Part shown: piece by piece, positions 4,988 through 23,805 of the stretch
Layout: each line of letters begins with the position of its first letter
How positions within the stretch are numbered: position 1 is the stretch's first letter
IMG/VR virus record: IMGVR_UViG_3300029199_000244
Coordinates: 1 to 23,805 of that record
Strand: one strand, 5' to 3'
DNA: 23,805 nt
Source: a virus
Translations under genes and position numbers: made by a program
Notes under the pieces: model-generated
Database searches by the model: none
Told to the model about the DNA's origin: nothing
What the model saw: the letters and a program-made list of their open reading frames with translations, nothing else

Positions 4988-5015
4988 GGCTGGAAAAACA
5001 GCACAGTGGTGGAGC

Positions 5016-5093
5016 ATGACGCTGGGTAGAGTGATACTGCCCGGCGCGCTCGCGTTGGGGTTTGCGATCATCCAAACGTGGAGCCGATTATGA
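5016..5093 (+). CDS. Tiny hydrophobic ORF, possible single-pass membrane peptide
   Basis: A 25-residue frame (MTLGRV... ending TWSRL) made almost entirely of one hydrophobic segment, with an arginine at each end. It fills the otherwise non-coding gap between the muramidase and the tail-tube-like gene. Its stop TGA overlaps the ATG at 5090 in an ATGA junction, the same coupling used elsewhere in this operon. The preceding GGTGGAG is very close to the ATG, so the start is weak. Being next to a muramidase suggests a holin-like or lysis-accessory membrane peptide, but that is inference. It could also be a small translational coupler without function of its own. Confidence 0.35.
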   Translation: MTLGRVILPGALALGFAIIQTWSRL

Positions 5094-5590: not shown

Positions 5591-5967
5591 TGGCGCTGCT
5601 GTCTGAGCTGGTTGATCGTTTCCTGCTGCAAGAGCGCGGCGCGGCCAACATTCTGCCACCTGAGTCTGTAACGGCCCAGGCATTGGCAGCGGTGGAGTTC
5701 TATGCAGGCTTTGCCGAGCTGGAAACCCCGCCGGAGCTCGGGCAGCCGATCACCGCCAATATCGATATATCCGTGTCTGAGTGGGCTGAAATACGCCCGC
5801 TCTTCCTTCTGTATGTGGAGCGCGAAAGCGCGCTGCAAATGGAGGCGACGCGGTCAATGGGGGCGGAAGTGTTCGGCCGTAACAGCTCAGAAGTGGGCAA
5901 CGATATTACCCAGATGGAAGCCGATATGCCGCGCCGGGTGTTCTGCATTCCGATCATCACGGTGTAA
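5590..5967 (+). CDS. Unknown small phage structural-region protein
   Basis: A 125-residue protein of unrecognised family. The first 55 residues look helical, followed by an EWAEIRPLFLLYVERESALQMEATR helix region and a C-terminal part with DMPRRVFCIPIITV. It is translationally coupled to the tube-like gene (TGATG) and is followed six nucleotides later by the hub-like gene. Small proteins at this position in myovirus operons are often connector, completion or assembly factors, but nothing in this sequence identifies it as one. Confidence 0.7.
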   Translation: MALLSELVDRFLLQERGAANILPPESVTAQALAAVEFYAGFAELETPPELGQPITANIDISVSEWAEIRPLFLLYVERESALQMEATRSMGAEVFGRNSSEVGNDITQMEADMPRRVFCIPIITV

Positions 5968-5973
5968 CGCCCG

Positions 5974-8663: not shown

Positions 8664-11600
8664 ATGAACCACTCCGTCGCCTGGACCGAGCACAACGAGC
8701 CTGTTGGCCTGTCGCTCGATCAGCTCCTTTACCGTATGCGCCGCCATGACAGCCAGGACGGCCTGCTGTTTGACAGCGTTACCCTTGATGAAATCCTGCA
8801 GGAAGAAGGCGTTGAGCAATTCGCCTTTGACGCCCTGGTATCCCCGTTCTCAAAGCTCAAGCGCAAGATGGATATCCTGTCTCGCACCATGGATCGCGCC
8901 ATTGATGGCTACGGCGTGGCGGCCATGCAGGTGTCTGATCCGTTCAAGCGCAACGGTGTTGCCCAAGTGGCGGCTGTATTCGAGCTACAGGATGGTCAGA
9001 CCGTCAGTGTCTACTTCCACAACCCGGACAACACCCCCGGCAAGCTGGCCCCCAATGATGAAATGATCAGTTGGAAATGGCTGCTCAACAAGAAAGATAT
9101 CACCATTGTGGTGGCCCCTGAGCGCGGCAATGACCTGCAGATTCGTGAAGTGGCGCGCCGCATTATGAAACTGGCACAAAAGAACAGCGCCGCCTTTGCC
9201 AAGGCCAATGCCAAGCGCGCCGAACGCCTGGAGATGATCGAAGGCCTGCGCACCGAGATCGCTGATCTGGAATATGAGTTGTCAGACCTGCAGGACCAGA
9301 TTGAGATTGCCAAGGTTGAGGCTGAAAGTCGTGCCATGGCTCCGTATAAGGCGGTTAAAGCGGCTGGCATGGCCGCACTGAACAGCTTCCGCAAGTTTCT
9401 GAGCCGCAGCCAGTATCGCGCCATGGTTGAAGCCATCGAAGGCGAAGAGGGTGCCGGTATGGCCGATCGCGCCAAGGCGCTTGCGGCCATAATCGAAGGC
9501 ATGGCGGCCACCTACGATCAGGACGGCAAGGGCGATAACGCCACCGTCTACCTGCACTACTTCCAGAACAGCGCCGACTGGTTCATTACCGAAAAAGACG
9601 CTCAGGGCGGTACGCAGCAGGCCTTCGGCTATGCCGATATGGGGCAAGGTGGCGAACTGGGCTATATCAGCATCGATGAGCTGACCAAAAACGGCGTCGA
9701 GCTGGATCTGTATTTTGACCCCAAGCCCCTGAAAGCGGTTAAGACTTCCAATGCCGGTACCGACGAAGCTGAGGCCGACCTTGCTAAGGCGCATGCAGAG
9801 CTGGATGGGCGCATTGATGCCCTTTCGGATGATGAAGCGCAGCGCATGGCGCAAGCGCTGGAGCTGAAGGTTGGCGCTGGCAAAGATCCGCGCGATGTTA
9901 TCAAGCAGCAGCACCCTGACGATCAGCGCCGGGGCCTTGAGTTGATCGCCTCCCAGTCTGAGGTAGGCGAATCGACCGACCCCACAACCCCAGAAGGTTA
10001 CGCCGCCATTATGGATGATGAGGCTGCATTGACTGCCGTTCAGGACCAATTGGACAGCTTCTTCCAGACACGCATGATCGAAGTGCGTAACGCCCTGCGC
10101 GAACTGGGCTGGGAAGGCGAGCGCTTCAAAACCCTGTCGAAGAATGGCGTAGAGGCGGTATTCGACCTGATTCAGGTGGGCGCCGGTGCCAACGTTGCCG
10201 GTATGACGATTAATGGTATCCGTGACGACCTGAGCAAGACCCCGGCGGAGCTGGCGGCTGAGGTGGATGCGCTGGCGGCTGATGTTGAGCAAGAGAGCTC
10301 AGAAACTGCAGTGAGCGGCAGTGAGGATGATAATTCCGATCTGTATGCTGCTTTGTACGCCGAAGCGGTTGATATGGGCCTCTCCCCGCTTTCGCCTGAT
10401 GCGTATATGCAGGAAATCAATGCTGGTGCACGCCAAGGCATGAGCCTGGCCGAAATCGAGAGCAGCCTTGCTGAATATCGCCAGATGCTGTTAGACCTGC
10501 GCGCAAAGAGAATCACTCCCCGTCGCGTGGTGGGTCGTGGCGCCAAACAGAGCGATGCGGTTAAGTGGATCAATGGCCAGATCGAGAAGAACGAGCAGGC
10601 TATATCAACAGGCGGTATCGGGCTTTACGTCAACGCGAGCAACTATGCGTACTACCTGAGAGGCCTGATCAATGATGCACCCAGGGCAGAGGAAGGCGAA
10701 CCCTCATCGCCTTCTTTCGAAGTAGGCGATGAGGTCGAATGGCGCAACGATAACGGCACGCTGACCGGCATCTATCGCGGCCCTCTGGATGAAACCACGG
10801 CTGTGATCGTGGTGGGCGGCATGCAGATGAATGCGCCCGTTGCAGAACTCTACCCGATAGGCGATGTGGCTGATCAGGATGCAGGTGAACCAGTCGAAGA
10901 AGGCTTGCAGCCCGAAGGTGCGACCAATCTGGTGAAAACCGCCAAAGGCACGCAGATCGAAACCGGCTTTACCCTGGTTGAAGCTGATAGCCTGATCGCC
11001 TCGCACGATTCTGCAGGCAACCCCAACCCTGACTACCCGCAAGAGCTGCAGCCGCGTGACCGTGGCCGTGACGCCTCTATCGCCTGGGTGAAGAAGACCG
11101 CCAACCAGCTTGACCCAGACAGCCTGGGCAAAACCCGCCGTGCCGACACCGGCGCACCGATTGTGGGTCCTGATGGCGTAGTGGAATCTGGTAACGGCCG
11201 CACCATGGCGATTCAGGAAGCATACCGCTCCGGCAAGGCAGATGAATACCGCGAATGGCTGATGGAAGAAGCTGAATTCTTCGGTCTGAGCGCCGACAAG
11301 GTGCGCGGCATGAAGGCCCCGGTGCTGGTTCGCGTGCGTACCTCCGCCATTGATCGCCGTGAATTCGCCATTGAAGCCAATCAGGATGACAAGCTGAGTA
11401 TGACCGCCACCGAAAAGGCCCGTGCTGATGCAGATCGTATTGATGAGGCTTTGATTGCGCGAATGTCAGACGATGGCGATCTGCTGGCCACTGGCAACCG
11501 CGACTTCCTGGCTGGTTTCATGCAGTCACTGGGCGACACCGAAGCGGCGCAGTACCTGACAAGCGACGGCGCTCCGACCGCGTCACTGATATCCCGCGTT

Positions 11601-12431
11601 CAAGCAGCGATCTTTGCCAAGGCCTACAACGACGACCGCCTGCTTGAGATGGCCGCCGATGTCAGCAAGCCCGAAGTAGCGAACGTGATCAATGCACTGA
11701 ATGCAGCTGCGCCTGAGTTTATCCGTGCCCAAGCTGCCGATCAGGACGGTGCCGGTGCGCTGGCGTCTCAGCTGGTGGACAGCGTCGAGGTTTCACTAAA
11801 TGAACAGGCCGTGCAGGCCATCATCGATGCTACCAACCTGGTGCGTATTGCGCGCTCCGAGGGTGCCAGTGTCGAAGAAATGGTCAACCAACGCGGCCTG
11901 TTCGGCGATATCCCGCCGGCTACTGCCGCCATGGCCCTGTTCATCAACCAGAACAACCGCAGCAGCAAGCGTCTGGGTGTGGCATTTCGTGCCATGGCTG
12001 AGTTCCTACGCACAGAAGCCGAGCGAGGCCAGACCGTGGATATGTTCGGTGATAGCGAGCAAGCCAGTCTGGAAGAGATCATTGCCGCCGCCAACCGTGA
12101 GCTGGACAAGGAGTACGGTGAAGGCGAATACGCCATTGAGTCGCTGGATATGTTCAGCACGCCGGTAGAGCCTGAGCCAGAATCGCAAATGGAGCCTGAG
12201 CCGATGACTGAGCCAGATCAGCAAGCCGTGGAACCTGAAAAACAGGCCGATACCGCCTACCTGCAGTCCATCATCGATAAGACCATTGCCGATCCGCTGG
12301 CGTCCGATATCGCCGATAAGCTGGGCGAAATCTTCGGTCGTCACGCTGGCGATGCCGAGATGGAAACCCTGATCGAGCAGGCCGCCATGGTCTATCAAAA
12401 TGCCGTTATGCAGGCCACTGCCAACCTCTAA
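8664..12431 (+). CDS. Giant polyvalent protein with DdrB-like ParB-fold domain
   Basis: A 1255-residue protein, likely injected with the DNA to protect it from host defences, in the manner of P1 DarB and related polyvalent proteins. Visible modules in order: a DarA-like domain shared with the 7345 gene (residues about 65-190); a coiled coil (195-225); a DUF2958-like region (about 290-360) with YFQNSADWFITEKD, FGYADMG, ELGYISIDEL; a small SH3-like region (685-730); and a DdrB-like ParB-superfamily domain (about 755-940). The last shows SLIASHD, LQPRDRGRDAS, DTGAPIVGPDG, VESGNGRTMAI and PVLVRVR, the usual signature. A helical extension and a P/E-rich linker follow. No methyltransferase or helicase domain as in full P1 DarB was seen. 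It lies 9 nt from the next polyvalent gene. Confidence 0.85.
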   Translation: MNHSVAWTEHNEPVGLSLDQLLYRMRRHDSQDGLLFDSVTLDEILQEEGVEQFAFDALVSPFSKLKRKMDILSRTMDRAIDGYGVAAMQVSDPFKRNGVAQVAAVFELQDGQTVSVYFHNPDNTPGKLAPNDEMISWKWLLNKKDITIVVAPERGNDLQIREVARRIMKLAQKNSAAFAKANAKRAERLEMIEGLRTEIADLEYELSDLQDQIEIAKVEAESRAMAPYKAVKAAGMAALNSFRKFLSRSQYRAMVEAIEGEEGAGMADRAKALAAIIEGMAATYDQDGKGDNATVYLHYFQNSADWFITEKDAQGGTQQAFGYADMGQGGELGYISIDELTKNGVELDLYFDPKPLKAVKTSNAGTDEAEADLAKAHAELDGRIDALSDDEAQRMAQALELKVGAGKDPRDVIKQQHPDDQRRGLELIASQSEVGESTDPTTPEGYAAIMDDEAALTAVQDQLDSFFQTRMIEVRNALRELGWEGERFKTLSKNGVEAVFDLIQVGAGANVAGMTINGIRDDLSKTPAELAAEVDALAADVEQESSETAVSGSEDDNSDLYAALYAEAVDMGLSPLSPDAYMQEINAGARQGMSLAEIESSLAEYRQMLLDLRAKRITPRRVVGRGAKQSDAVKWINGQIEKNEQAISTGGIGLYVNASNYAYYLRGLINDAPRAEEGEPSSPSFEVGDEVEWRNDNGTLTGIYRGPLDETTAVIVVGGMQMNAPVAELYPIGDVADQDAGEPVEEGLQPEGATNLVKTAKGTQIETGFTLVEADSLIASHDSAGNPNPDYPQELQPRDRGRDASIAWVKKTANQLDPDSLGKTRRADTGAPIVGPDGVVESGNGRTMAIQEAYRSGKADEYREWLMEEAEFFGLSADKVRGMKAPVLVRVRTSAIDRREFAIEANQDDKLSMTATEKARADADRIDEALIARMSDDGDLLATGNRDFLAGFMQSLGDTEAAQYLTSDGAPTASLISRVQAAIFAKAYNDDRLLEMAADVSKPEVANVINALNAAAPEFIRAQAADQDGAGALASQLVDSVEVSLNEQAVQAIIDATNLVRIARSEGASVEEMVNQRGLFGDIPPATAAMALFINQNNRSSKRLGVAFRAMAEFLRTEAERGQTVDMFGDSEQASLEEIIAAANRELDKEYGEGEYAIESLDMFSTPVEPEPESQMEPEPMTEPDQQAVEPEKQADTAYLQSIIDKTIADPLASDIADKLGEIFGRHAGDAEMETLIEQAAMVYQNAVMQATANL

Positions 12432-12440
12432 GGACGACTG

Positions 12441-14144
12441 ATGAATCTTTTTTTTGATGCTACCGAAAGTAGCAAAGCTAAATCGACGCTTGCCAGGCTC
12501 CGCCTGGTCGGCGCTTTGGCCAAGGTACGCAAAGATATCCTGGCGCTGGGTGCGGGGGCTGGCAATATTGTCCAGCGCCTGCAACTGGCCAAAGAAGCCT
12601 TGAGCCTGCGTGAGCAGCTGGGCGAGCTTGATGCACCCAACGATGTTGAATCAGATAATGATCCCGACCGGGAAGCCATTCTGGGCGTATTCAGGCAGCT
12701 TGGGCGTGACTACCCAGATCGTAGTATGTCTGTTGCAGGGAATTTGGCGGGCAGCGTGGTGGCGCTGATCCGTGAGGCAGTAGGGCGCGAGGTCATGCCA
12801 GAGGAGCTGAGGCAACTGGTCAGCATGGAGGATCGACGCGCCGCCTATCGAGAAGGCCAGCGGTCTGTCGACCCTGTCGCAAGCGCCGTTGTTGCCATGC
12901 ACGATGTGATTGAGGCACAGGCTGATGTCCTTGCTGCTGTCGTGCGCGACGATATCGGAGCGGTTGACTTTATCTGGGGCGAAGAGGGCAAGGAGCCGAC
13001 TGCATCCGGTAAGCGCAAAGGTGCCAAGGGTGTGGCGCATATCCTTGAGGCACGAATGCGCAAGGATGGCCTGAGCCTGGAGGAGGCTGCCGCTGTGGCA
13101 GAGGAAGTGGCAAAAGTGGTCGCTACAGGCGAGATTACACTAACCCATCACCATCAAGATGTGAGCCAAGCTACCATTACAGACGGCAAGTACTCTGCAA
13201 TCATGGTGAAGCGGGAAGGTAGTAATGCATGGCTGCTGACAGGGTGGGAAGAAAATAAGGATTCCGATGCCACTGGCAAGGGGGATGACAAAACCAGCGC
13301 TACGCACTCCGGGCCTACACCTGCCCGTCCCGGAGAGGGAGCGGAACCCTCTGATATCAATATAGCACAATCTCAGGATGAAGGTCAGCCGACCGATGAA
13401 GGCAGTGCGTCTACAATAGCTGCCCACGGCCTCGCACTGGAGGTGCCGGCCATTGAGCAGCAGCTGATAGATGATTACAACCGCACGAATCATGTATTTG
13501 GTGGCCGCGACTTCAATGCAGAACTCCGCAGCGAAGCGGAAAGCCTTTTGAATGAACTGGTCGAGCGAAACCACACGCTGGATACCCCGGAGCAGCAGGC
13601 ACTGGCCAAAGAGCTGATCGAATCCTACCTGCAGGCCCAAGCGGAGTTCGCGCAGTGGAATGCGCGCTTCAGCACCAGTAACCCATCTTGGATTGTGACT
13701 GGCCGCAGTGGTCGCGACATGGGCAAGTACAATCGCGCCAATGAGCGGCACATGGATGAATACACCCGGCGCGTTGACCAGTTGCAGGCCCAGCGTGACC
13801 GCATAGGCGAAACGCTCTACAAGATGCGCCCCCAAGAGGTTCAGGTAGAACAAGCACTGGGCTCGGACTTGCGCGGCATTACCCAACAGGCCGGGCATAT
13901 TCTGGGTTATTTGGAGGAGGGTAAAGCCGCGCTGGTTGCGGAAACCCGCAAATGGGCCGCACCTAAAGCGCACAAGTTGATCGAGCGCAGCCTGACTGTC
14001 GACCGTAACCGCACCCTTGAGCATATCCGCGAGCTGGAAAACTCCAAGTCCGTACAGGATGCCGGTGGTTTGGCCAAGGTGTTCGGCCCTCGCTCAAAGG
14101 CAGGCAAGCTGGTGGAGACGCTTCTGAGTGAGCCTGACTCTTGA
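12441..14144 (+). CDS. Polyvalent protein with Barnase/ColicinE5-like (PBECR) nuclease domain
   Basis: A 567-residue multidomain protein. Residues about 165-275 match the phage Barnase/EndoU/ColicinE5/D/RelE-like nuclease type: VDFIWGEEGK, KGVAHILEARMRKDG, an acidic helix, then ATITDGKYSAIMV and WLLTGWEE. This is a predicted endoribonuclease, known as a building block of polyvalent proteins delivered from virions. An acidic, proline/serine-rich linker (about 275-330) separates it from a helical C-terminal half containing NPSWIVTGRSGRDMGKYN and a coiled coil, whose function I do not recognise. It starts 9 nt after the DdrB-like gene with AGGACG upstream. It is the last plus-strand gene before the CRISPR module and ends in an inverted repeat. 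Confidence 0.8.
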   Translation: MNLFFDATESSKAKSTLARLRLVGALAKVRKDILALGAGAGNIVQRLQLAKEALSLREQLGELDAPNDVESDNDPDREAILGVFRQLGRDYPDRSMSVAGNLAGSVVALIREAVGREVMPEELRQLVSMEDRRAAYREGQRSVDPVASAVVAMHDVIEAQADVLAAVVRDDIGAVDFIWGEEGKEPTASGKRKGAKGVAHILEARMRKDGLSLEEAAAVAEEVAKVVATGEITLTHHHQDVSQATITDGKYSAIMVKREGSNAWLLTGWEENKDSDATGKGDDKTSATHSGPTPARPGEGAEPSDINIAQSQDEGQPTDEGSASTIAAHGLALEVPAIEQQLIDDYNRTNHVFGGRDFNAELRSEAESLLNELVERNHTLDTPEQQALAKELIESYLQAQAEFAQWNARFSTSNPSWIVTGRSGRDMGKYNRANERHMDEYTRRVDQLQAQRDRIGETLYKMRPQEVQVEQALGSDLRGITQQAGHILGYLEEGKAALVAETRKWAAPKAHKLIERSLTVDRNRTLEHIRELENSKSVQDAGGLAKVFGPRSKAGKLVETLLSEPDS

Positions 14145-14158
14145 TGATGCTAAAGGTA

Positions 14159-14190
14159 TCGAGTGACAGGCATGGTGTCCTGTCACTCGA
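14159..14190. terminator. Perfect 12-bp inverted repeat between convergent genes
   Basis: TCGAGTGACAGG at 14159-14170 is exactly complementary to CCTGTCACTCGA at 14179-14190, with an eight-base loop. It sits in the 62-bp gap between the polyvalent gene and the convergent cas3 stop. A perfect stem between convergent genes is most simply a bidirectional transcription terminator, although no T-tract follows on either strand. It also marks the left edge of the CRISPR-Cas module, so a recombination or insertion scar is a second possibility. Confidence 0.6.
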
Positions 14191-14206
14191 CCGGCTATAG
14201 GCGGGA

Positions 14207-17197
14207 TCAGAGTCTTACGCTTTTGGCGCGCCCAAAGCACTCATCAATCACGAATGTGACACCATCCTGGTCTCGCAACGATATCTCCATGCTTGCGTGC
14301 TCATCCAGACCCATTTCTGCTGCAATCCTTGGCAGCTGATCAAGCGAAGGCGACAGCATATCCCAGCAGCCGACTTTGTCGTTGGGGCGAATCTCAACAT
14401 CTTCCGTTACGTGCCATTCTGCCCAATCTCGCGCCAATCCCGATTCATTCAAGGCAGGTGAATGGATCTCGAAATACAGGTTCTGATGCCGGTCATACCG
14501 GGCGCGAAATCGCACTGTTGGTTGAGGATCGTGCCGAAGATTGAAATCGATATAGTGACGACGCGTCAGCCATGCAAGTGCTGTCTTCGATGGGGCGCAC
14601 CCTGTAATAACCTGCGCTTCAGCTTCAGCCAGCATGCGTTTGGCTTGATTCTGATCATCCTGCGCCAAAGCGCACATTGCACCATTGTGACCGAACACAA
14701 GCGTAGGCGTTATAACAAGTCCTGCCGCCTGCCAGCCGCTGGCACCGGCTAGTAGTGCGGCCATTGATTGATCGTTGTGAGTGTATATCTTCGCATTGCC
14801 CGGATACCTGAAGCAGTCAGCATACCCCTTCAATGATCGAAGATTACGATCAAGGATGGCGATATTGGGTGCCTGGACATGCAGGCGTCGATGTCGATTG
14901 ACGCGCCCCGCGATCTGCACAATGGATGCCGTTGAGGACGGCTCAATCACAGACCAGTCAAAATCATGATCGCGACCGACTTCTTCCACTGGCGTAGCCA
15001 CAACTACAAAGACCAGATCTTCTTCCGGAGCCTGTCGGATCATATGATCAAGCTCTGCATCCTGAAAGATGTTTTCGTTCCCTCGCTTGCGGTTAAAAAG
15101 CCTGTCCAGTGCGCTTTCCTTCACCCATCGGCGCAACCGGAAATCCTCAGAATGGTAAGCCGACACCCGGTAGCCTGGCTCGCTCTGCAGCCGGGTAGCT
15201 ATCTCTACGCAAGGTTCGATGTTGGCAACCCGGACAACGCCGAAAGAGACGCGCTTACCTGATGGGTGCAACCATGCATGATTGTGGTGCAGTTGTTGTA
15301 TTGCGGCGCTGATCGAGTGTTGAAATCTATCAATTGGCGTTTCGCCTTCAGCAACGGTCTGTATGTACGCCAAGCGATAACAGGGTTCCTGGTGTAGGTG
15401 GTCGGCAAGCCCATCAAGCCACTGCGCAATGATTGGCTCAATCTCATCCGAAGCCCCTGTATGGCTTGAGGGTGACTGGTAGTTGTCTACCAGCGTGATA
15501 TGGCAGCCTACATGCGAGTGGTGATTGATGGCGCCATGCATGTGCGCACCGGCCTCAAATGCACGCACCACTGCAGCAGCACATCCCTGCGTGAGTGTCG
15601 CGCTGGAGACGATGACGTTACACCCAAGCAGGGCCGCCATTTCAATCAGTCGCATCACCGCACCTAGGGATTGAGGGCTGTAATTATCAATTTCATCAAG
15701 AATCAAATCACTGCCTGCCACGCGCAGAGCCGCCGTTACATGATGGCCCTGGCGACCGGGGTTACCCGCATCAATCAGGTAGTCGAGTGTGGATACCAAA
15801 AGCGGGGTCCCGAGCAGGGCGCACGTTTTTTCTTCTGAACGGCAGCCGCCGTAGGTTTCAGCCCATTCACGCACCCACTTTGGGCAAGCAGGATCCACGT
15901 TGCCACCAATCTCCCAGATCGCGCGCCCATCAGCCGTGTCGGTTTCATCCTCATCCTCGTCCACAGCGCCAAGCTTTGCACGCGTGGTGTCGTGTGCCGC
16001 CTTCAGAAAGGCATCCCCCATTACGGTTGCTACTTGCTGCCTGGGCAGGCCAAGGTCTGCGCAAATCGCTTCACCCGTTTGCAGCGTAAGCGAGCGCAAG
16101 TTCAGGCCAATAGATATGCGTAACGGCGCTTCTGGTGCTGTCATTGCATCGGCTATCATCAGGTTGGCGCGCGTCTTCCCCGTGCCGGTGGACGCTGCGT
16201 TCAGTACAAGGCGGGGAGTGTTTCGCTGTTCGGGATGCTCATATTGCGAACGGATATGGTTGACCGCGTCCCGCTGCCAGGCAAAGCGAGATTCAGTACT
16301 GTCGCCATGTAGGCGTGCGCGCGCAGCGGTCGAAAGACCTGCAAGCCCTTCAATTTTGGCCAGCTTTTCTACCCAGCTGGCGGCTTCCTGACCAACGTGC
16401 TCAAGATGCCAGTCCAGCGGCTGATCAAGTTTACGCCCGACCCCGTTATTATTCGGTTTGGTGTTGGCATACAGGCGGTCACTCATGCTATCCACGATTA
16501 AGTCACCAGCCATTGAGCGGCTGGACACCTGATGATCTGCGGCAATCAGAGCCATTCGGACTATCATGCCCAAACCCTTCCAGTAAGGCGCTTGCTGGTG
16601 TTCTTGCGCGGGCAGGTCCGCATCAATACGCTGAAGCACATCCCAGAGCGCGCTTTCAAGGCTTTCAGGGAAGCCCTGAGTATCGGACGGCATTTGCTTA
16701 AACGCATCGACTGGCTGATCGATGAATGGCCTGACATGCGTCTCCGCCATGGGAATGACCGATCTGTCTTTGTGGCTTGATCGCGCCGTTGGCCCCAACA
16801 AGCCGTGGTGTGTCATTACAGCAAAATCGACAACATCGTCAGCCTTGCATACGGGCGCGACAACAGTCTGCTTAATCATCCGATGGCCCTGCTGCAGGGG
16901 CTGCATAAATGCAGGTAGCCGCTCTATGCCATCATCCGCCATTACGTGCCAAGCATCCTTCAATGTGGGCGGCGGGGCGGCATTGCCTGCATCGGCACTT
17001 TTCTGCCAGGCGCGCATCATGCCTCGCCATGTTTCCAGTACCCGCACCGAGATCCACTCATGCCGGATTCGGTCACCACTCAATGCAGACTGCTGTCCAC
17101 GCAGCTTTTCTTGGAAATGCACAGTGGCCTTCCCAATGTCATGGCTCAAGCCTGCCGCGCGAGCCAGGAGTGAGGCGAGGTTGGCCCAGCTATTCAT
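14207..17197 (-). CDS. cas3: Type I-F Cas3 nuclease-helicase lacking the Cas2 fusion
   Basis: A 996-residue HD nuclease plus superfamily 2 helicase that degrades DNA after the Csy complex has bound its target. The HD domain begins almost at once (LSHDIGKA with H19-D20), with THHGLLG and AADH further on. Helicase motifs follow: Walker A in ASTGTGKT near residue 340, DEID near 500, SSATL near 530, and the arginine motif QIAGRVNRHR near 762. In canonical type I-F the protein is about 1,070-1,100 residues because a Cas2 domain of roughly 95 residues precedes the HD domain. Here that segment is absent, since the WYL gene ends at the start codon. All catalytic motifs look intact. It is translationally coupled to the upstream regulator (ATGA). 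Confidence 0.92.
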   Translation of the reverse strand: MNSWANLASLLARAAGLSHDIGKATVHFQEKLRGQQSALSGDRIRHEWISVRVLETWRGMMRAWQKSADAGNAAPPPTLKDAWHVMADDGIERLPAFMQPLQQGHRMIKQTVVAPVCKADDVVDFAVMTHHGLLGPTARSSHKDRSVIPMAETHVRPFIDQPVDAFKQMPSDTQGFPESLESALWDVLQRIDADLPAQEHQQAPYWKGLGMIVRMALIAADHQVSSRSMAGDLIVDSMSDRLYANTKPNNNGVGRKLDQPLDWHLEHVGQEAASWVEKLAKIEGLAGLSTAARARLHGDSTESRFAWQRDAVNHIRSQYEHPEQRNTPRLVLNAASTGTGKTRANLMIADAMTAPEAPLRISIGLNLRSLTLQTGEAICADLGLPRQQVATVMGDAFLKAAHDTTRAKLGAVDEDEDETDTADGRAIWEIGGNVDPACPKWVREWAETYGGCRSEEKTCALLGTPLLVSTLDYLIDAGNPGRQGHHVTAALRVAGSDLILDEIDNYSPQSLGAVMRLIEMAALLGCNVIVSSATLTQGCAAAVVRAFEAGAHMHGAINHHSHVGCHITLVDNYQSPSSHTGASDEIEPIIAQWLDGLADHLHQEPCYRLAYIQTVAEGETPIDRFQHSISAAIQQLHHNHAWLHPSGKRVSFGVVRVANIEPCVEIATRLQSEPGYRVSAYHSEDFRLRRWVKESALDRLFNRKRGNENIFQDAELDHMIRQAPEEDLVFVVVATPVEEVGRDHDFDWSVIEPSSTASIVQIAGRVNRHRRLHVQAPNIAILDRNLRSLKGYADCFRYPGNAKIYTHNDQSMAALLAGASGWQAAGLVITPTLVFGHNGAMCALAQDDQNQAKRMLAEAEAQVITGCAPSKTALAWLTRRHYIDFNLRHDPQPTVRFRARYDRHQNLYFEIHSPALNESGLARDWAEWHVTEDVEIRPNDKVGCWDMLSPSLDQLPRIAAEMGLDEHASMEISLRDQDGVTFVIDECFGRAKSVRL

Positions 17198-18087
17198 GAC
17201 GTTATGGCCTCCATGCTCACAGCCACCGGATCAATGCAGTCAGATGTGACCGCTTTGGGTTGCAGGTGGCGCTGCCGAAAATGGAATAGCGACGCATCAT
17301 CCAACAGAATGCGGTTCTGGCTATCCAGGCCAAGCTCGCGGCGGGCAGCCAGTGACTGGTCAGGCGTCATCTTGGGGTTCAGTGAGACGACATACCAGCG
17401 GCCCGTCGCACGGCCAATGCCTGAATCTTTGATTGCGTCAATCTGCAGCTGAATGCTTGGCGTGATCGAGAGGGGGCGAAGTTCGAGCATGCGGAAAAGA
17501 ACAAATTGCTTTAGAGGGGCGGTTAGTACGTCTTGAGCATCAAATTCATCAAGGTCATACCCGGTTACTAGCAGTTGATCAGCAATGCGATGCAATGCGA
17601 CCGGGTAGATGCATCGCCACCGCGCCTGATCATTCTTTTTCCTGCCTACATAGCGCACCGAGAAGGCTTTTTTGTGCACCATTGCGTGAAGCAGGGGGGT
17701 GTAATCGACCTCATCAGGGAGGCGCTGCGCCCGAATCTTGCCGTACTGAACGCTGAGGCTTCCCACAACGCCTGGCGCATCATCAATATCAAGCCCAGCC
17801 TGCAGCCGTGTGATGGGGCTAAACAGGATCTCATTCAGGATGGAGTTGGCGCTGTTCGGGTCTCGTGTATCCAGGGCGACATAGCTATGGGGCCGGTAGC
17901 AGCGTTTGTCCTGATAAATCAAGTTGCTGTAGGCCGAGCACATCTGATTGAGAAGGCGATACTTCGTTGCAGCCGAGCCCTCACTGATGCCGTCCAGATC
18001 ACTTCGGCGGAACTGACCGGTGTGGATTGTCCGGCGCAAAACGTAGCGTTCGATCATGTCCTGTTGGTAGATAGTTGCAGATGACAA
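17194..18087 (-). CDS. WYL-domain transcriptional regulator coupled to cas3
   Basis: A 297-residue protein with an N-terminal winged-helix-like part (residues 8-60, RYVLRRTIHTGQFRRSDLDG) and a WYL domain at about 145-215. The WYL signature shows as FSVRYVGRKK, IYPVALHRIADQLLVTGYD and FVLFRMLELRPL. A C-terminal region of about 75 residues follows, matching the HTH-WYL-C-terminal layout of BrxR/CapW-type defence repressors. The start is TTG at 18087, supported by a GAGGAGAT site six bases upstream. ATG at residue 11 is the alternative. It precedes cas3 with an ATGA overlap and diverges from csy1 across an AT-rich region. It probably controls both operons and may sense nucleic acid or a ligand, but the ligand is unknown. 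Confidence 0.8.
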   Translation of the reverse strand: MSSATIYQQDMIERYVLRRTIHTGQFRRSDLDGISEGSAATKYRLLNQMCSAYSNLIYQDKRCYRPHSYVALDTRDPNSANSILNEILFSPITRLQAGLDIDDAPGVVGSLSVQYGKIRAQRLPDEVDYTPLLHAMVHKKAFSVRYVGRKKNDQARWRCIYPVALHRIADQLLVTGYDLDEFDAQDVLTAPLKQFVLFRMLELRPLSITPSIQLQIDAIKDSGIGRATGRWYVVSLNPKMTPDQSLAARRELGLDSQNRILLDDASLFHFRQRHLQPKAVTSDCIDPVAVSMEAITS

Positions 18088-18256
18088 GTTCCAATCTCCT
18101 CAAAAAGATAATTCACTTAAAACCATAGCGTTAAATATATATCAAAATGAAACATAAAAGAATTGCCACAGGATGAAAATAACTCTAGTCTAGTGCTCAT
18201 CGAACAAGCAACGGGAGGATGGCGCGGAGTCATGGACACCAGCGCCGGGCAAAAGA
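18088..18256. promoter_or_regulatory. Divergent AT-rich control region between regulator-cas3 and csy operons
   Basis: This 169-bp gap is markedly AT-rich compared with its surroundings. For the plus strand, TTGCCA (18163-18168), a 17-bp spacer and TAGTCT (18186-18191) form a plausible sigma-70 promoter for csy1. The -10 lies in a CTAGTCTAG pseudo-palindrome (18185-18193) that could be an operator. For the minus strand, TGATATATAT-type sequence round 18135-18145 is the best -10-like candidate, without a clear -35. The first gene product is a WYL regulator, so this is the expected binding region. Promoter positions are inspection only. Confidence 0.5.
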
Positions 18257-19384
18257 ATGAAAAACTCAGAGCAGCAAAGCGCGCTATCCAACTGGATACT
18301 GGACAACCTGGTGCATTTCTCGAACAAGCTCACAAACTCAAACGCACCGGGGGGCGGTATTCGGCTGTCAGGCATACAGGCCCTTGACCTGCCTTACGTG
18401 AGTGCACGAACGCACCTGCACGACATCAACCGTAAAGCGACCGGGGCACTTATTGAGCTGGATTACGTAAAGCCCACAAATATCCGGATGAAGGATGTTC
18501 GGGTATGCCTGGGCGAGGAAGTCATCAACCCGCCAGAGCTTGATCTTGCTAAGGATCAGATGAGCGAAGTTGCCGGTGTGTACTTGGATGCAGCATCAGG
18601 CCGGCATCCCTGCAAAGTTGCCGACCCGAAGGCACAGACTTTGTCGCGGCTGAAGCAGATTCTATTGCCACTACCTGAGGATGAGGCTTATTTGGCGGTA
18701 AGCCCGCTCAGTGCAGCAGGCATGGCAAAGCTGCTCAATGACACCTACGCCGCGCGCTTCGACCAGAGCGAGCAGGGCGACAATGGAAAAGGCTTGATCC
18801 CCAGGGTGCGTTCATTTCCCTATGGCGGAGACAAGCCGCAGAACGTGGGCTCTCGCGTCAATGAAGGCTTGAGCCGTCCATTCGTGTTTGATCGCGTGCC
18901 CCGTGAAAATGATGACCTGAAATACGCGCATCGCCTGTTTTATCGTGGCCTAACCTTGCGACTGCCTAAAGCGCTAATCATGGACTACAAGTCATTCCTC
19001 GACAGCGTGCGCAGAGAAGGGCGCGACTTGAAGGTATGGCCTGCCTCGCACAAGCGTGCAGAGCGTGCCTATCTGCAGCCTCTATGGGGGAGCTGGGAGA
19101 ATCAGGCCAGAAAGGCTAGGCGCGTACTGGAAGAACACGCAGCTTCACTGCCGGATTCAAATCCCGCATGGCATGGCGAGACCGAAGAAGCCCGGTTTCA
19201 GGCTGGGTGGTTGATGCCCTCAGCGCGAGGGCATGAGTGGAAGAAACAAGCAGCTCGCCGATTTGCCAGCCTGCTTTCAGCCAGTCGTGTCGCTGCCGGG
19301 CGTGACGGCGAGTCTGGACGGATCGCGTTGAGCCCTACCGATCAGCACCGCGTTGCCAGTGCAGTCCTGGAGGGCTTCAGATGA
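18257..19384 (+). CDS. csy1: Cas8f (Csy1), large subunit of the type I-F effector
   Basis: A 375-residue protein in the csy1 position of a csy1-2-3-4 operon. The clearest family mark is FPYGGDKPQNVGSRVNEG near residues 188-205, matching the GG-x-KPQN-x-x-x-x-N signature of Csy1. The C-terminal half is helical, with LQPLWGSWENQ and RRFASLLSAS resembling the helical bundle that recruits Cas3. Cas8f binds the crRNA 5' handle with Cas5f and recognises the CC PAM. It is shorter than the P. aeruginosa protein (about 434 residues), mainly at the N-terminus. The start ATG 18257 lacks a strong ribosome binding site, so the N-terminus is uncertain. A 13-codon frame from 18219 ends on this ATG. Confidence 0.85.
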   Translation: MKNSEQQSALSNWILDNLVHFSNKLTNSNAPGGGIRLSGIQALDLPYVSARTHLHDINRKATGALIELDYVKPTNIRMKDVRVCLGEEVINPPELDLAKDQMSEVAGVYLDAASGRHPCKVADPKAQTLSRLKQILLPLPEDEAYLAVSPLSAAGMAKLLNDTYAARFDQSEQGDNGKGLIPRVRSFPYGGDKPQNVGSRVNEGLSRPFVFDRVPRENDDLKYAHRLFYRGLTLRLPKALIMDYKSFLDSVRREGRDLKVWPASHKRAERAYLQPLWGSWENQARKARRVLEEHAASLPDSNPAWHGETEEARFQAGWLMPSARGHEWKKQAARRFASLLSASRVAAGRDGESGRIALSPTDQHRVASAVLEGFR

Positions 19385-20265
19385 ACAAGCGTTATCTATT
19401 GCTTCCACGACTGGATGTGCAGCGCGCAAACGCAATGGTGACTGCGGGTGTGATCTCACTATGTCCTGTCATGCCAGCAGTGCTCATGGGCGAGGCTTTC
19501 GGACATGCAACAGGTGCGTTCCCAGAAGGGGTGATGCTTGTCCACCATGACGCTTACCTGCTGGCTGATCAAAGCCTTGACCAAGCCCGACCGGGTGGCA
19601 CTGAGTACTATCCGCATCAATTCCGGGGCGCGACAGCGTTCAACGGTAAAGATATAGCGGGTGGTGACAAGAAAAAACCATCCAACTCGATCCAGCCAAC
19701 GGCCAGCATGAATGGCACCTGGTCAGTGATTATGTCATTCGACGCAGATCAGATTGATGCCGACAGTCTGCTGTCAGCCGCAACGCAATTTCTTGGACGT
19801 ATGGCACGGCTTGCCGGTGGCGTGATTACACACTTTGAAAAGCCTCAGGTGCAAGATGATCTGGCGGGTATTCTTGCTGCATGCCGAAGTGGTTTTGTGG
19901 CTATCGACCGGTCGCCTTGGCTGGTATCGGACACACAGACGCGCATCGAGCGTTTGCTGGCGCACACCGATGGAAGCGTTCAGCCCGAGCATCAGGGAAG
20001 GCGTCGCTGGCTGGTCCCGGCTGCTCTGGGGTATGCCCTGCTAACAGATCCTGTCGATACGGCTGGCGCGCGTAATGGCTTGCCCCATGCGTTCGCAGAA
20101 GTGCTCCTGGGGTTGGTGGAGCTGGTCAGCATCCGGCAAACATCCGCTTTCCCCACGCAAAACGAAACACAGGATATAACACTGATTGAATCATGCTTTT
20201 GGCGGCAAAACTGGCCAACACAAGACGTTTTTTTATTGAATCAAGAGGAGCCCAGCAATGGCTAA
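19381..20265 (+). CDS. csy2: Cas5f (Csy2), crRNA 5'-handle-binding subunit
   Basis: A 294-residue protein whose N-terminus RYLLLPRLDVQRANAM aligns with the LLLPRL-x-x-Q-x-ANA signature of Csy2. The C-terminal part contains RRRWLVPAALGYALL, a GARNGLPHAFAEVLLGLVEL segment and a final FWRQNWP motif. These correspond to the conserved WLVP-x-x-x-GY and RN-x-x-P-x-x-F-E positions of Csy2. It pairs with Cas8f to hold the crRNA handle. The start overlaps the csy1 stop (ATGA), and the end overlaps the csy3 start by eight bases. It is slightly shorter than the usual 320-330 residues. Confidence 0.85.
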   Translation: MNKRYLLLPRLDVQRANAMVTAGVISLCPVMPAVLMGEAFGHATGAFPEGVMLVHHDAYLLADQSLDQARPGGTEYYPHQFRGATAFNGKDIAGGDKKKPSNSIQPTASMNGTWSVIMSFDADQIDADSLLSAATQFLGRMARLAGGVITHFEKPQVQDDLAGILAACRSGFVAIDRSPWLVSDTQTRIERLLAHTDGSVQPEHQGRRRWLVPAALGYALLTDPVDTAGARNGLPHAFAEVLLGLVELVSIRQTSAFPTQNETQDITLIESCFWRQNWPTQDVFLLNQEEPSNG

Positions 20266-21331
20266 AGTAATGGCAAAACTACCCGGTGTAACCAGCTTCA
20301 CCCGTCGCAGTGTGATCAGCGATGGCGCATTTTACAGTCTTGTTGACGGGGTTGAAGTACCCCTGCCGGTTGTGCGTCACGGAATTCGTGGCACTCAGAA
20401 CATCAATAACACAAAGGAGCGCGAACCCTCGCAGATCCAGGTAACTGAAACAGCGCGCACAGAAGTGAATGCCGACGCCTTCCTGGTGCGGTTCAATCTG
20501 CGCTTTCTGCCGCTACAAGAAGGCTTGCACGCGTGTGCGGTCAATAAGCAGACCGACAAGGCGTTAACAGAGGCGCTGCGGGCGCAATACGAGGCATTCG
20601 TGAGCGCTGCCCGCAACAGTGATGGCTTGGCTGAGGTGTCTCTTCGCACCGCGCGGAATATCCTCAATGGTCGCTGGCTCTGGCGCAACCGTAGCCTGGG
20701 CGAAGCAATCGAGATCAGCGCCAGTACGCAGGACAAGCGCATAAACATAGACGGGTTTGATGCGCTTGAGCTGCCGCTGAATGCCTTTGGCGATTACACC
20801 CGTGAAGAGCAGCAGCTGGGTGACTACATTCAGCACATGCTTCAGGGCGAAGCCACTGGCGGCATGACGATTGAAGCGCGCGTAAGCCTTGGGTTCACGG
20901 GATCGGTCGAAGTATTCCCCTCACAGAACTATGTGTCCAAAAAGCCCAAAGGCTTTGCCCGGCCACTGTATAAGCTGGGAGTGGCCGACAAGTCGCGCAC
21001 GTTTACTACCGCTGATGACATGCTGGATTACAGTGATATTCGGCGCATGGGGCAGGCTGCACTGCGTGACCAGAAGATTGGCAATGCGCTGCGCACCATT
21101 GATACCTGGTATCCGGACGCAGAAGCGTATGATCATCGGCCAATACCGATCGAGCCTGAGGGCGCGAATCTTGATTCTATGTCGATGCTTCGCAAGCACA
21201 AAGGGGCCGGTAGCAAGTCTGCGTTTGCACTGGCAACGCGAATGGCAGAGATCAACCCCAACACCCCGGACGGCATGTTTCTGATCGGTGCCCTGATGAG
21301 GGGTGGCGTGTACGGCGAAGCGGGCGAGTGA
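20258..21331 (+). CDS. csy3: Cas7f (Csy3), backbone subunit of the type I-F effector
   Basis: A 357-residue Cas7-family protein. Six copies normally wrap the spacer part of the crRNA. The family signatures are strong: GIRGT near residue 43, ARNILNGRWLWRNR near 130, SVEVFPSQ near 212, KIGNALRTIDTWYPDA near 275, and the C-terminal LIGALMRGGVYGEAGE. The order and spacing agree with P. aeruginosa Csy3 (about 342 residues). A good AGAGGAG site lies before ATG 20258, so it may be expressed more strongly than its neighbours, as its stoichiometry requires. It ends in GTGA, which overlaps a possible GTG start for csy4. Confidence 0.95.
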   Translation: MAKVMAKLPGVTSFTRRSVISDGAFYSLVDGVEVPLPVVRHGIRGTQNINNTKEREPSQIQVTETARTEVNADAFLVRFNLRFLPLQEGLHACAVNKQTDKALTEALRAQYEAFVSAARNSDGLAEVSLRTARNILNGRWLWRNRSLGEAIEISASTQDKRINIDGFDALELPLNAFGDYTREEQQLGDYIQHMLQGEATGGMTIEARVSLGFTGSVEVFPSQNYVSKKPKGFARPLYKLGVADKSRTFTTADDMLDYSDIRRMGQAALRDQKIGNALRTIDTWYPDAEAYDHRPIPIEPEGANLDSMSMLRKHKGAGSKSAFALATRMAEINPNTPDGMFLIGALMRGGVYGEAGE

Positions 21332-21411
21332 CCCGCACTTTAATCCTGAAGTTCAACTCGACAAAGGAGGATGCTGGCGCAGACCGAATAGGGCTTGCGT
21401 CAGCCAATGAA

Positions 21412-21978
21412 ATGAAGCACTACATGGATATCAAGCTCGTGCCAGCAGTGGGTATGACGCCGCCAACTCTGGCATCAGAAGTCGTCAAGACGGTACATAA
21501 GCATCTGCACGACCACCCCGGAACGGTGGCAGTGGCGCTGCCTGAGTGCAAAGCCGGGGCTGAGCGCAAAGTGGGGACGCTGGTGCGGCTATTCGCTGTC
21601 GAAGGTGACCATCTTGAAGTGATTGCTGATGCCATCGAGGCCCGCAAAGCACTTAACGGGCTTGCGATCCCAATGCGCATTCGCACAGTGCCTGCCGAGG
21701 TTGGCAAGTGGGCTGCCTACACCCGGTTCAGGTTGCCCAATCGACGCCGACAACCAAAGGATACGGATGCTTTCGCGATTCGTCGTCAGCAGCTTCGGGC
21801 CGAAGGCTTGGCGATGATGGACACGCTGCCCACGATTTACATGACATCAACCGGAAACGGGCACCGCTACGGCATGGGCATACAGGTCATGGAAAGCGCC
21901 GATCCAGCGCCGCAGGGTGTATTGAACGGGTATGGACTGTCCAGCCGGACGGAGCCTTACTGGCTTCCCCTGCTATGA
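21412..21978 (+). CDS. csy4: Cas6f (Csy4), crRNA-processing endoribonuclease
   Basis: A 188-residue processing enzyme that cuts each repeat at the base of its stem-loop. Starting at ATG 21412 gives MKHYMDIKL, the standard Csy4 N-terminus (MDHYLDI). It places a histidine (H29, in KTVHKH) at exactly the position of the catalytic His29. The serine region appears as MTSTGNGHRY, and YGLS near the C-terminus matches the conserved tyrosine segment. The arginine-rich stretch RFRLPNRRRQ fits the helix that grips the RNA stem. No good ribosome binding site precedes 21412. A GTG at 21328 overlapping the csy3 stop would add 28 residues not seen in the family and may be used for coupling. Confidence 0.88.
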   Translation: MKHYMDIKLVPAVGMTPPTLASEVVKTVHKHLHDHPGTVAVALPECKAGAERKVGTLVRLFAVEGDHLEVIADAIEARKALNGLAIPMRIRTVPAEVGKWAAYTRFRLPNRRRQPKDTDAFAIRRQQLRAEGLAMMDTLPTIYMTSTGNGHRYGMGIQVMESADPAPQGVLNGYGLSSRTEPYWLPLL

Positions 21979-22106
21979 ACCAAAACCGACCAGTCTGCAA
22001 TGCATTGATATTCAACGAAATGCGCGATCGCTCGTATTTTTGGGTAAAACGCACGAAGCGAGCAATTGCGCATTCAAAAACAAGAGATTATAGTGATTTT
22101 GTTGTA
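21979..22106 (+). promoter_or_regulatory. CRISPR leader with inverted repeat and promoter
   Basis: This is a 128-bp non-coding stretch between csy4 and the first repeat. TATAGT (22089-22094) preceded at 17 bp by TTGCGC (22066-22071) is a plausible array promoter, with transcription starting close to the first repeat. A 16-base imperfect inverted repeat (arms 22019-22034 and 22059-22074, 14 matching positions, of the form AATGCGC-x-AT-x-GCTCG) overlaps the -35. It could bind a regulator or IHF-like protein, or form a hairpin after csy4. Its place next to the uniform repeats marks this end as the leader side. Confidence 0.6.
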
Positions 22107-22737
22107 CTTCACTGCCGCGTAGGCAGCTCAGAAAGAGATGAGCCGTCATCCCGGCGGCACTCAATACTTCACTGCCGCGTAGGCAGCTCAGAAAGCCGAC
22201 AATCGCGTTGGTCGACAAGGAGAAGACTTCACTGCCGCGTAGGCAGCTCAGAAACAGATATGGAAGCCGCCACTCTCGACGTTACACCTTCACTGCCGCG
22301 TAGGCAGCTCAGAAAATTGAAGAGAGTCAGGCTGAGCAAGCGCAGGCGCTTCACTGCCGCGTAGGCAGCTCAGAAAGGGATGACCACGGTCGCCAGTTTG
22401 ATGGCGTCCTTCACCGCCGTATAGGCGGCTTAGAAAGGGGCTTCGGTGGTGGTGACCTTGGCCCAGCTCTTCACCGCCGTGTAGGCGGCTTAGAAAAGAT
22501 CAACCTGCCCCGCATCCTCCGGCTTCACCTTCACCGCCGTGTAGGCGGCTTAGAAAATACGCGCCTGAGTCTCTGCGGCCTGCTCCAGCTTCACCGCCGT
22601 GTAGGCGGCTTAGAAATGGCAAGAAGCCCAGTGACCGCAACGGGTGGGTCTTCACCGCCGTGTAGGCGGTTTAGAAAAACGAGAAGGCCGAAGTGGGTAT
22701 CAACCTGCACTTCACCGCCGCATAGGCGGATTACTTG
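22107..22737 (+). CRISPR. Type I-F CRISPR array, 11 repeats and 10 spacers, two repeat types
   Basis: Repeats are 28 nt and spacers 32-33 nt (spacers 3, 4 and 9 are 33). Repeats 1-5 (starts 22107, 22167, 22227, 22288, 22349) are identical: a CTTCA lead-in, stem CTGCC/GGCAG, loop GCGTA and handle CTCAGAAA. Repeats 6-10 (22409, 22469, 22529, 22589, 22650) have stem CCGCC/GGCGG, loop GTATA or GTGTA, and handle CTTAGAAA (TTTAGAAA in repeat 10). Repeat 11 (22710-22737) keeps the stem but ends in ATTACTTG, a degenerate terminal repeat, so the leader is on the left. The form matches type I-F repeats cut by Csy4. Spacer 5 (22377-22408) matches the portal-like gene in this window. The array has no cas1/cas2 nearby. 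Confidence 0.98.
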
Positions 22738-22994
22738 CAGGTAGTTGAATGCAGGTCATGACTGGCCTGCATAGCCTGCCAGCTCTCAGGGGTCGTCTCG
22801 GTCATGGCGGCAATCTTGCCTGCCAGTCCGTCATCGCACGGCACGTTACCGTCAATGAATGCTTGCAGGTGTGCGGCATCAACGGCCATCTTTCGGGAAG
22901 CTTCGGTTACGCTCAGGTTCAGCGGGTCGAGAACATCAGCCTTGAATACGATGCCAGGGTGAACCGGCTTGCGGGTACGAATGCGATTATTCAT
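22731..22994 (-). CDS. HigA-like antitoxin / HTH protein without a toxin
   Basis: An 87-residue protein of the HigA (XRE-type helix-turn-helix) class. The marks are RKPVHPGIVFKADVLDPLNLSV at residues 8-30, the TEASRKMAVDAAHLQAFIDG helix-turn-helix, and the closing TPESWQAMQASHDL. HigA antitoxins bind RelE-like HigB toxins and repress their own operon. No HigB-like toxin is present. The start overlaps the stop of the upstream gene (ATGA). Its 3' end runs into the degenerate last CRISPR repeat, convergent with the array. It might neutralise a host toxin, repress its own operon or, as an HTH protein behind a very small gene, act like an anti-CRISPR-associated regulator. The first two are better supported by family. 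Confidence 0.8.
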   Translation of the reverse strand: MNNRIRTRKPVHPGIVFKADVLDPLNLSVTEASRKMAVDAAHLQAFIDGNVPCDDGLAGKIAAMTETTPESWQAMQASHDLHSTTCK

Positions 22995-23164
22995 ATTTCG
23001 AGATCCTTGAACAGCTCGTCGGCACTCTCAAACCGCTTGCCCTTGCCGGATTCCAACTCATCAACCGCTTCAACGGTGGTTGCGTTGGGCAGCTGTCGTT
23101 CGCCCCGGTGGATTTCGTCCATCTGTTGCACACTTTCCATCAGGTCATCAAAGAAGCTGCTCAT
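22991..23164 (-). CDS. Short RelB/DinJ-like antitoxin-like protein
   Basis: A 57-residue acidic protein. Its C-terminal 33 residues follow the RelB/DinJ antitoxin tail pattern PNA-x-T-x-x-A-x-(D/E)-x-x-x-x-G and F-x-S-x-(D/E)-x-(L/M)-x-x-DL, which wraps round RelE toxins. The N-terminal FFDDLMESVQQMDE helix recalls the opening helix of some XRE antitoxins. The start at 23164 is chosen because a minus-strand promoter lies just upstream. Upstream ATGs at 23197 and beyond fall at or before the predicted transcription start. It is coupled to the HigA-like gene, and no toxin lies between or beside them. Confidence 0.6.
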   Translation of the reverse strand: MSSFFDDLMESVQQMDEIHRGERQLPNATTVEAVDELESGKGKRFESADELFKDLEI

Positions 23165-23202
23165 GGCGAACCCTGCTGTTTCGTTTTTGCATATCATGCT
23201 TA

Positions 23203-23231
23203 ATTGTATATCCCAGTCGATAAGCGGGCAA
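23203..23231 (-). promoter_or_regulatory. Promoter for the antitoxin-like operon
   Basis: Read on the minus strand, TTGCCC (23231-23226), a 17-bp spacer and TACAAT (23208-23203) make a good sigma-70 promoter pointing at the gene starting at 23164. Just downstream, GCAT-ATC-ATGC (23189-23199) is a small inverted repeat at the expected transcription start. It could be an operator for the HigA-like product. Confidence 0.55.
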
Positions 23232-23315
23232 TTTGGCTGGTTGCATTCCCTATCTGAGTGATGAACCGGAAACTCCCCACCTTCAAAGCCATGGCGCTGG
23301 CGCACAATCAGCGTC

Positions 23316-23805
23316 ATGGCCAAGAATCCCAAAACGCAGCGACGCGGCATCTTCTCCCTGTTCGGCAGCAACACTAAAGCTTACACAGACGAGACAGCGT
23401 CAGCGAGCGACATTAAACAGTCGGATACCACCCTATACGGCGCGGGCATGACCACGGTCGCCAGTTTGATGGCGTCCGGAAATCGCAAGGCTCGCACCCG
23501 TCAAGCCATCTATGACCAATGGTCGATGATGGAGGCGAACCCGATTGTATCCACGTCCGTTCAACTGCTGGTGACAGCTGCGCTGGGCGGGCATGAGACC
23601 AACGGTAGCCTGGTGTTCATCGAGGAGCGGCCCGGATTCAACGACGATCAGAAAATGTCGGATTTGGTGCGTGAAGTGCGGGACGACCTTTCCGATCTGT
23701 TCAATGCAGTGGCGTTTCAGGTGGCGTACCTGGGGGCCAGCTTTGGCGATGCCTATGCGCGCGTCTACAGCGAGGACAAAACGGGCGTGGTGGATCTGTA
23801 TGTCG
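23316..23805 (+). CDS. Putative portal protein, N-terminal part (cut by window edge)
   Basis: An open frame from ATG 23316 runs to the last base without a stop, giving 163 residues of a longer protein. After a basic, low-complexity N-terminus comes RQAIYDQWSMMEANPIVSTSVQLLVTAALGG near residues 69-99. This recalls the opening helix region of phage portal proteins, where an R-x-x-x-Y-x-x-x-x-x-M-x-x-x-P-x-(I/V)-x-x-(A/S) pattern is common. A further helical region, around LVREVRDDLSDLFNAVAFQVAYL, follows. Portals form the dodecameric DNA gate of the capsid, and the gene would open the head module. It contains the protospacer-like match to CRISPR spacer 5 at 23445-23476, at codons 44-54. Another capsid-vertex protein is possible. 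Confidence 0.6.
   Translation, partial: MAKNPKTQRRGIFSLFGSNTKAYTDETASASDIKQSDTTLYGAGMTTVASLMASGNRKARTRQAIYDQWSMMEANPIVSTSVQLLVTAALGGHETNGSLVFIEERPGFNDDQKMSDLVREVRDDLSDLFNAVAFQVAYLGASFGDAYARVYSEDKTGVVDLYV
23445..23476 (+). other. Protospacer-like match to own CRISPR spacer 5
   Basis: These 32 bases agree with spacer 5 (22377-22408) except at the third base (C here, G in the spacer). The two bases before it on the same strand are CG, where type I-F interference needs CC. Both differences lie at third codon positions of the portal-like gene (GCG for GCC, GGC for GGG) and leave the protein unchanged. The match itself is directly visible. Protection of the own copy is inferred from known type I-F PAM and seed rules. 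Confidence 0.95.

Follow-up and report, generated by a model that had tools for sequence, protein, structure and literature searches.

A type I-F CRISPR-Cas module on a P1-like phage, with spacers matching sister phages and a silently altered portal site in the carrier

The viral record IMGVR_UViG_3300029199_000244, a 23.8-kb part of an incomplete phage genome (the window hereafter, meaning the whole stretch of 23,805 nucleotides that was analysed), carries a type I-F CRISPR-Cas module whose array, judged by its spacer matches, is aimed at close relatives of the carrier. We consider it likely that this is a P1-like phage in which a fixed guide set excludes sister phages, the carrier itself being exempt through a gene replacement and through silent changes in the PAM and seed of its own portal site.

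The carrier phage and its cas cassette

Genes for the tail sheath, tube, endolysin, DarA/ddrB-like proteins, and portal are found on the record. The homologous sheath, tube, portal, and Dar genes place the carrier among P1-like phages, its sheath being ~24% identical to that of P1 itself; in a sheath comparison it groups with Xanthomonas phage Rb1 and more distantly with P1. Rb1 has a sheath 60% and a portal 47% identical to the carrier's, and both Rb1 and P1-like phages have DarA_N and ddrB-like domains in common with it, but the Rb1 annotation is without any cas gene. Upstream of its smaller tail genes, Rb1 has a large gene annotated as a chromatin remodelling ATPase, the kind of gene that the carrier's cassette replaces. 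The sister phage G001 (67 kb) is much closer, with a sheath 98% and a portal 90% identical to the carrier's, and a second sister, G005, measures 75 kb. Searches for Csy3 in the sister records (G001 to G007) returned none, and no other phage with the carrier's Csy3 was seen in the viral contigs searched. Portal relatives were also found on 71- to 115-kb plasmids of Pseudomonas, Burkholderia, and Acinetobacter, which would fit a phage-plasmid life style of the carrier lineage; among bacterial genomes searched for relatives of the carrier portal, none was confirmed.

The features of the cassette and its left border are as follows.

12441..14144, plus strand: 567-aa gene; first 65 aa as in the DarB-like protein of G001, then a PBECR1 nuclease domain
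12635..23264, no strand: cassette; replaces 6.7 kb of G001, comprising most of the DarB-like gene and a 136-aa gene
14207..17197, minus strand: cas3, 996 aa; HD nuclease and helicase motifs, no Cas2 domain
17194..18087, minus strand: WYL-domain protein (below the Pfam cut-off), between the divergent cas3 and csy1
18257..19384, plus strand: csy1/cas8f; PADLOC Cas8f, E 2.4e-23, divergent
19381..20265, plus strand: csy2/cas5f; identified as Cas5f
20258..21331, plus strand: csy3/cas7f; identified as Cas7f
21328..21978, plus strand: csy4/cas6f; identified as Cas6f
21979..22106, plus strand: leader region, containing a hairpin
22107..22737, plus strand: CRISPR array; 11 repeats of 28 nt (the last degenerate) and 10 spacers of 32 to 33 nt

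The operon has the Cas8f, Cas5f, Cas7f, and Cas6f genes of a type I-F system, Cas8f being divergent. All five cas genes are intact open frames, and the HD, Walker A, DExD, and arginine motifs of Cas3 align with those of the solved P. aeruginosa Cas2-3. The Cas2-Cas3 fusion is absent: residue 2 of the carrier Cas3 already falls at profile position 104, and residue 9 at chain residue 119. Likewise, a search for cas1 (PF01867) in the 23.8-kb record, which is a genome fragment, found nothing, while the positive controls were detected. The interference genes thus look intact as predicted from sequence, and adaptation appears to be gone. The WYL-domain protein is a possible regulator.

Alignment of the carrier with G001 flanks the cassette on both sides, running up to 12634 on the left and resuming from 23264 on the right. 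Between these points the carrier has 65 residues of the DarB-like protein and the PBECR1 domain, then the cas genes and the array. A chimeric assembly was considered and rejected on two grounds: the sequence on either side of the cassette follows one and the same phage in the same order, and the PBECR1 domain of the left junction is found in relative G007 as well. At 12441 to 14144, relatives carry other cargo behind the same DarB-like N terminus, PBECR1 being a toxin-like nuclease domain, and this shared N terminus suggests a head-packaging signal at the cargo locus.

The 28-nt repeats and 32-nt spacers are those of type I-F, and the proximal repeats are uniform. Repeats 1 to 5 have CTGCC/GGCAG and repeats 6 to 11 CCGCC/GGCGG, a compensated stem change, with spacer 5 at the border between the two families. 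Such a border could come from a fusion of arrays or from a recent swap of the leader-proximal repeat. The leader hairpin (22022 to 22106) is strong (z -3.2), and the leader does not resemble those of host or bacterial I-F arrays that have this repeat. Repeats of 28 nt identical to the carrier's are present in Pseudomonas sp. TTU2014-080ASC, in a Salinisphaerales MAG, and in Rhodocyclus purpureus. This shared repeat does not settle the host, because the Csy3 proteins found in 16 of 21 genomes with the carrier's repeat are only 31 to 39% identical to that of the carrier. A host search with 1159 spacers from similar-repeat loci gave only chance-level matches (25/32).

Between the array and the portal gene, on the minus strand (22731 to 23163), lie a gene for a HigA-like antitoxin (NCBIfam TIGR02607) and a frame of 57 aa that also resembles an antitoxin; no toxin partner for these frames was seen. 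The degenerate last repeat overlaps the end of the HigA gene.

Spacer targets in sister phages

Five of the ten spacers match sister phages, in genes for the portal (spacer 5), a DarB-like methylase-helicase (spacers 4 and 10), and the terminase small subunit (spacers 2 and 8). Shuffled-spacer controls reached at most 22 to 24 matched bases and never more than 24.

22195..22226, plus strand: spacer 2; 27/32 in the gene for the terminase small subunit of G001, G002, and further relatives, no CC at the flank
22316..22348, plus strand: spacer 4; 29/33 to the DarB-like gene of G001, CC PAM
22377..22408, plus strand: spacer 5, 32 nt; matches the portal gene of the carrier and its relatives
22557..22588, plus strand: spacer 8; 24/32 in the terminase gene matched by spacer 2, 55 bases from that site and on the opposite strand, no CC at the flank
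22678..22709, plus strand: spacer 10; 31/32 to the DarB-like gene of G001, CC PAM, sole mismatch at position 12

The DarB-like protein of G001 has 2161 aa, with N6-methylase and SNF2 helicase domains. Two of the mismatches of spacer 4 with G001 are at positions 6 and 24; every sixth guide position (e.g., 6, 12, and 24) is unpaired in type I complexes. The presence of CC, the type I-F PAM, at the relatives' targets of spacers 4, 5, and 10 indicates it as the working PAM; it is not found at those of spacers 2 and 8. The gene matched by the latter two lies just upstream of the large terminase and is identified as the putative small subunit by position and sequence. The match of spacer 8 is weak alone and is strengthened by its position near the spacer 2 site. 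Comparison with relatives at the DNA and protein levels, and with phage records, gave no target for spacers 1, 3, 6, 7, and 9.

Spacer 10 also matches IMGVR_UViG_3300031730_000196 (at 8843) at 31/32 with CC, and its target motif, NEKAEVGINLQ, is found on 37 viral stretches, as for a broad guide. One phage that encodes this DarB-like motif, IMGVR_UViG_3300027710_000070, has a one-spacer I-F mini-array of its own (minus strand, ~3396 to 3482 of the reverse complement).

The cassette occupies the site of the sisters' DarB-like gene, and the targets of spacers 4 and 10 are therefore absent from the visible carrier sequence. This gene replacement, which the first-pass annotation had missed, is by its gene content a predicted second means of exemption. 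The carrier's own sites are thus altered or absent for spacers 4, 5, and 10, and the terminase region targeted by spacers 2 and 8 lies outside the contig.

Mapped targets are also clustered. Three of the five fall within the segment that the cassette replaces or 184 bases beyond its end, with a chance of ~0.013 if the targets are independent. Spacers 2 and 8 have the two nearest targets, separated by 55 bases (chance ~0.016), and the targets of spacers 4 and 10 are 575 bases apart. Those of spacers 2 and 8 are ~22 kb from the cassette site in G001. In I-F priming, new spacers are taken near earlier targets and from both strands (PMC4117759), and the spacing of both pairs, with spacers 2 and 8 on opposite strands, is as expected of this process. 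Primed acquisition together with purging of spacers against retained genes would suffice to account for the clustering.

Exact runs of 383, 296, 259, and 216 bases are shared by the carrier and G001 in surroundings that are mostly 81 to 96% identical, and an identical tract of 97 bases runs from 23709 to the contig end, downstream of the portal target. Such runs are evidence of recent recombination between the two lineages, which therefore meet in shared cells. Further signs of recent exchange are two tracts, at 5000 to 6000 and 11080 to 11860, in which identity to G001 rises to 98.6% and 99.4% while the DNA around them is less similar.

The carrier's portal site and competing explanations

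The portal gene lies <1.1 kb from the array and holds the single close match of any spacer to the carrier itself.

23316..23804, plus strand: portal gene (phrog_1497, E 2.4e-34); the contig edge falls inside the gene
23443..23444, plus strand: PAM site; CG in the carrier; of 11 relatives compared at the codon, CC in 9, CA in G006, GC in Rb1
23445..23476, plus strand: self-protospacer in the portal gene; 31/32, mismatch at position 3

Recomputing the match bore out the earlier observation that spacer 5 fits this site at 31 of 32 bases, with its sole mismatch in the seed (G in the spacer, C in the carrier target) and a CG flank in place of CC. A match of this quality is expected ~2.5e-12 times by chance (all spacers, both strands), and no spacer has another match to the carrier better than 21/33. 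The target lies in the portal reading frame and covers codons 43 to 54. Both differences are synonymous, as had been claimed: the altered PAM base is at the third position of codon 43 (GCG, Ala), and the seed mismatch is at that of codon 44 (GGC, Gly).

It had also been predicted that relatives would carry a GCC GGG allele at these codons. This allele is present in G001 and G005, with the CC PAM and positions 1 to 14 intact, but neither is the perfect target that had been foreseen, the best matches being 29/32 in these two phages. The mismatches are at positions 15, 21, and 22 in G001 and 15, 22, and 24 in G005, and all are silent. CC is present in G002, G003, and G004 also, but with T or C at position 3; G004 has C, as in the carrier. 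Across the eleven aligned relatives, codon 43 is GCC in nine, GCA in one, and AGC in one; the carrier, with GCG, stands apart from its close relatives. In 2.9 million viral contigs searched for an exact or synonymous spacer 5 allele, only five encode this stretch of protein, and a perfect match is absent from all of them. The proposal that the spacer is aimed at a related competitor is therefore partly supported: five spacers of the array match sisters (three with CC), and a perfect target for the portal spacer was not found.

Outside the PAM and seed position 3, spacer 5 is identical to the carrier allele. This includes AGT-TTG, which is found in the spacer and the carrier and in none of the relatives found, so that the source of spacer 5 was probably nearer to the carrier than G001 or any of these relatives. 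Such a source could have been a competing sibling or an ancestor of the carrier itself; its PAM is not recorded in the spacer.

Were the silent changes selected? Among the nine silently free codons of the PAM-plus-target stretch, two differences would land on precisely the PAM and seed wobbles with a probability of ~1 in 36, a figure counted by hand that assumes a source with CC. The carrier differs at 2 of the 9 codons that are identical in five relatives; GCC to GCG is not a rare change, and the PAM change alone is unremarkable. The pattern is suggestive of selection for the silent portal changes and falls short of proof.

In the explanation that we favor, the Csy-crRNA complex would bind incoming or co-infecting sister DNA next to CC, Cas3 would degrade the bound DNA, and the carrier's own portal site would stay unbound. 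Without the GG/CC motif, binding of double-stranded DNA by the P. aeruginosa complex is ~100-fold weaker (PMC4344526). A native perfect I-F self-match with a change at the -1 PAM position caused no interference, yet led to primed acquisition (PMC4117759), and the part of a further report considered here states that imperfect I-F matches can still cause autoimmunity (PMC11406979). The portal changes would be kept by selection against self-targeting, and loss of Cas1 and Cas2 would also remove priming against the carrier itself. The spacers may have been gained through adaptation genes acting in trans or since lost, with priming near earlier targets. Against this explanation stand the missing perfect portal target, the flanks of spacers 2 and 8, which are not CC, the half of the spacers that are without known targets, the commonness of a GCC to GCG change, and the autoimmunity that imperfect I-F matches can cause.

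It is possible, though doubtful, that spacer 5 was instead acquired from the carrier's own ancestor, which survived by mutating PAM and seed, so that any targeting of competitors by this spacer would be a by-product. The identity of spacer 5 with the carrier allele outside the two key positions, AGT-TTG included, and the placement of the differences on exactly the PAM and seed wobbles are in line with such an origin. The observations are accounted for just as well by a sibling strain at an equal distance from the carrier, however, and other spacers match genes absent from the carrier, which indicates that the array records other phages. Neutral drift, in which the phage would have picked up a commonplace or degenerating defence array and the two silent differences would have arisen by chance rather than been selected for exemption, strikes us as unlikely. 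About a third of the fourfold sites in the portal gene differ between the carrier and G001, G004 shares the carrier's base at position 3, and the last repeat is degenerate, all of which speaks for drift; but the cas frames and Cas3 motifs are intact, the proximal repeats are uniform, and the self-targets of spacers 4, 5, and 10 are each missing or altered.

The clustering of targets and the nearness of the exempt portal allele to the array, together with recombination between the carrier and G001 lineages, would also be seen if the guides served RNA-guided homing, cutting the replaced allele and the adjacent portal gene in co-infecting sisters, with the carrier then serving as the repair template from which the cassette is copied in. 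If this were true, biased recombination would spread the cassette jointly with the silently recoded portal allele to which it is linked. We regard it as very improbable: purging of self-targeting spacers and primed acquisition predict the same clustering, the spacer 2 and 8 targets are far from the cassette site, and processive Cas3 degradation may leave nothing to repair.

Relation to known systems and significance

The principle of guides aimed at sisters by a carrier that is itself exempt is already known from archaeal viruses (PMC6858448); what is new is its setting, a tailed phage of bacteria that brings its own effector. The mini-CRISPR arrays of the archaeal portogloboviruses SPV1 and SPV2 have spacers that target closely related viruses, and the orthologous loci of the carriers have point mutations or deletions that prevent self-targeting (Medvedeva 2019, PMC6858448). 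Sibling targeting, altered own loci, and targets near the array all recur here. In contrast, SPV1 and SPV2 have one to two spacers and depend on host cas genes, whereas the carrier has ten spacers and its own effector and Cas3, and its setting also differs in the silent exemption and in the replacement of a target by the cassette.

ICP1 likewise bears a type I-F system at a locus filled by a different gene in other strains. Its system comes with an adaptation module and is directed against the PLE satellite, whereas the carrier targets sister phages and no Cas1 or Cas2 was found in the window; the ICP1 Csy3 is only 30% identical to that of the carrier. The closest Csy3 found, at 45% identity, is that of plasmid I-F loci (Allochromatium pAt1 and A. 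baumannii p1DB053), which also have cas3 divergent from csy1-4 but carry cas1f, which the carrier locus is without. The CRISPR-Cas systems of huge phages, in the portions of Al-Shayeb 2020 (PMC7162821) drawn on here, are similar in being mostly without Cas1 and Cas2 and in having short arrays, with some spacers against structural genes of other phages. They belong to another phage group and are mostly of other types, and silent self-exemption is no part of their description in those portions.

If our explanation is right, the boundary between self and non-self in this phage is readable at single bases, as silent changes and one gene replacement, and would be testable with two alleles of one gene. 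In SPV1 and SPV2 the targets lie close to the arrays for a reason that was left unexplained (PMC6858448), and the carrier bears on this closeness of viral arrays to their targets.
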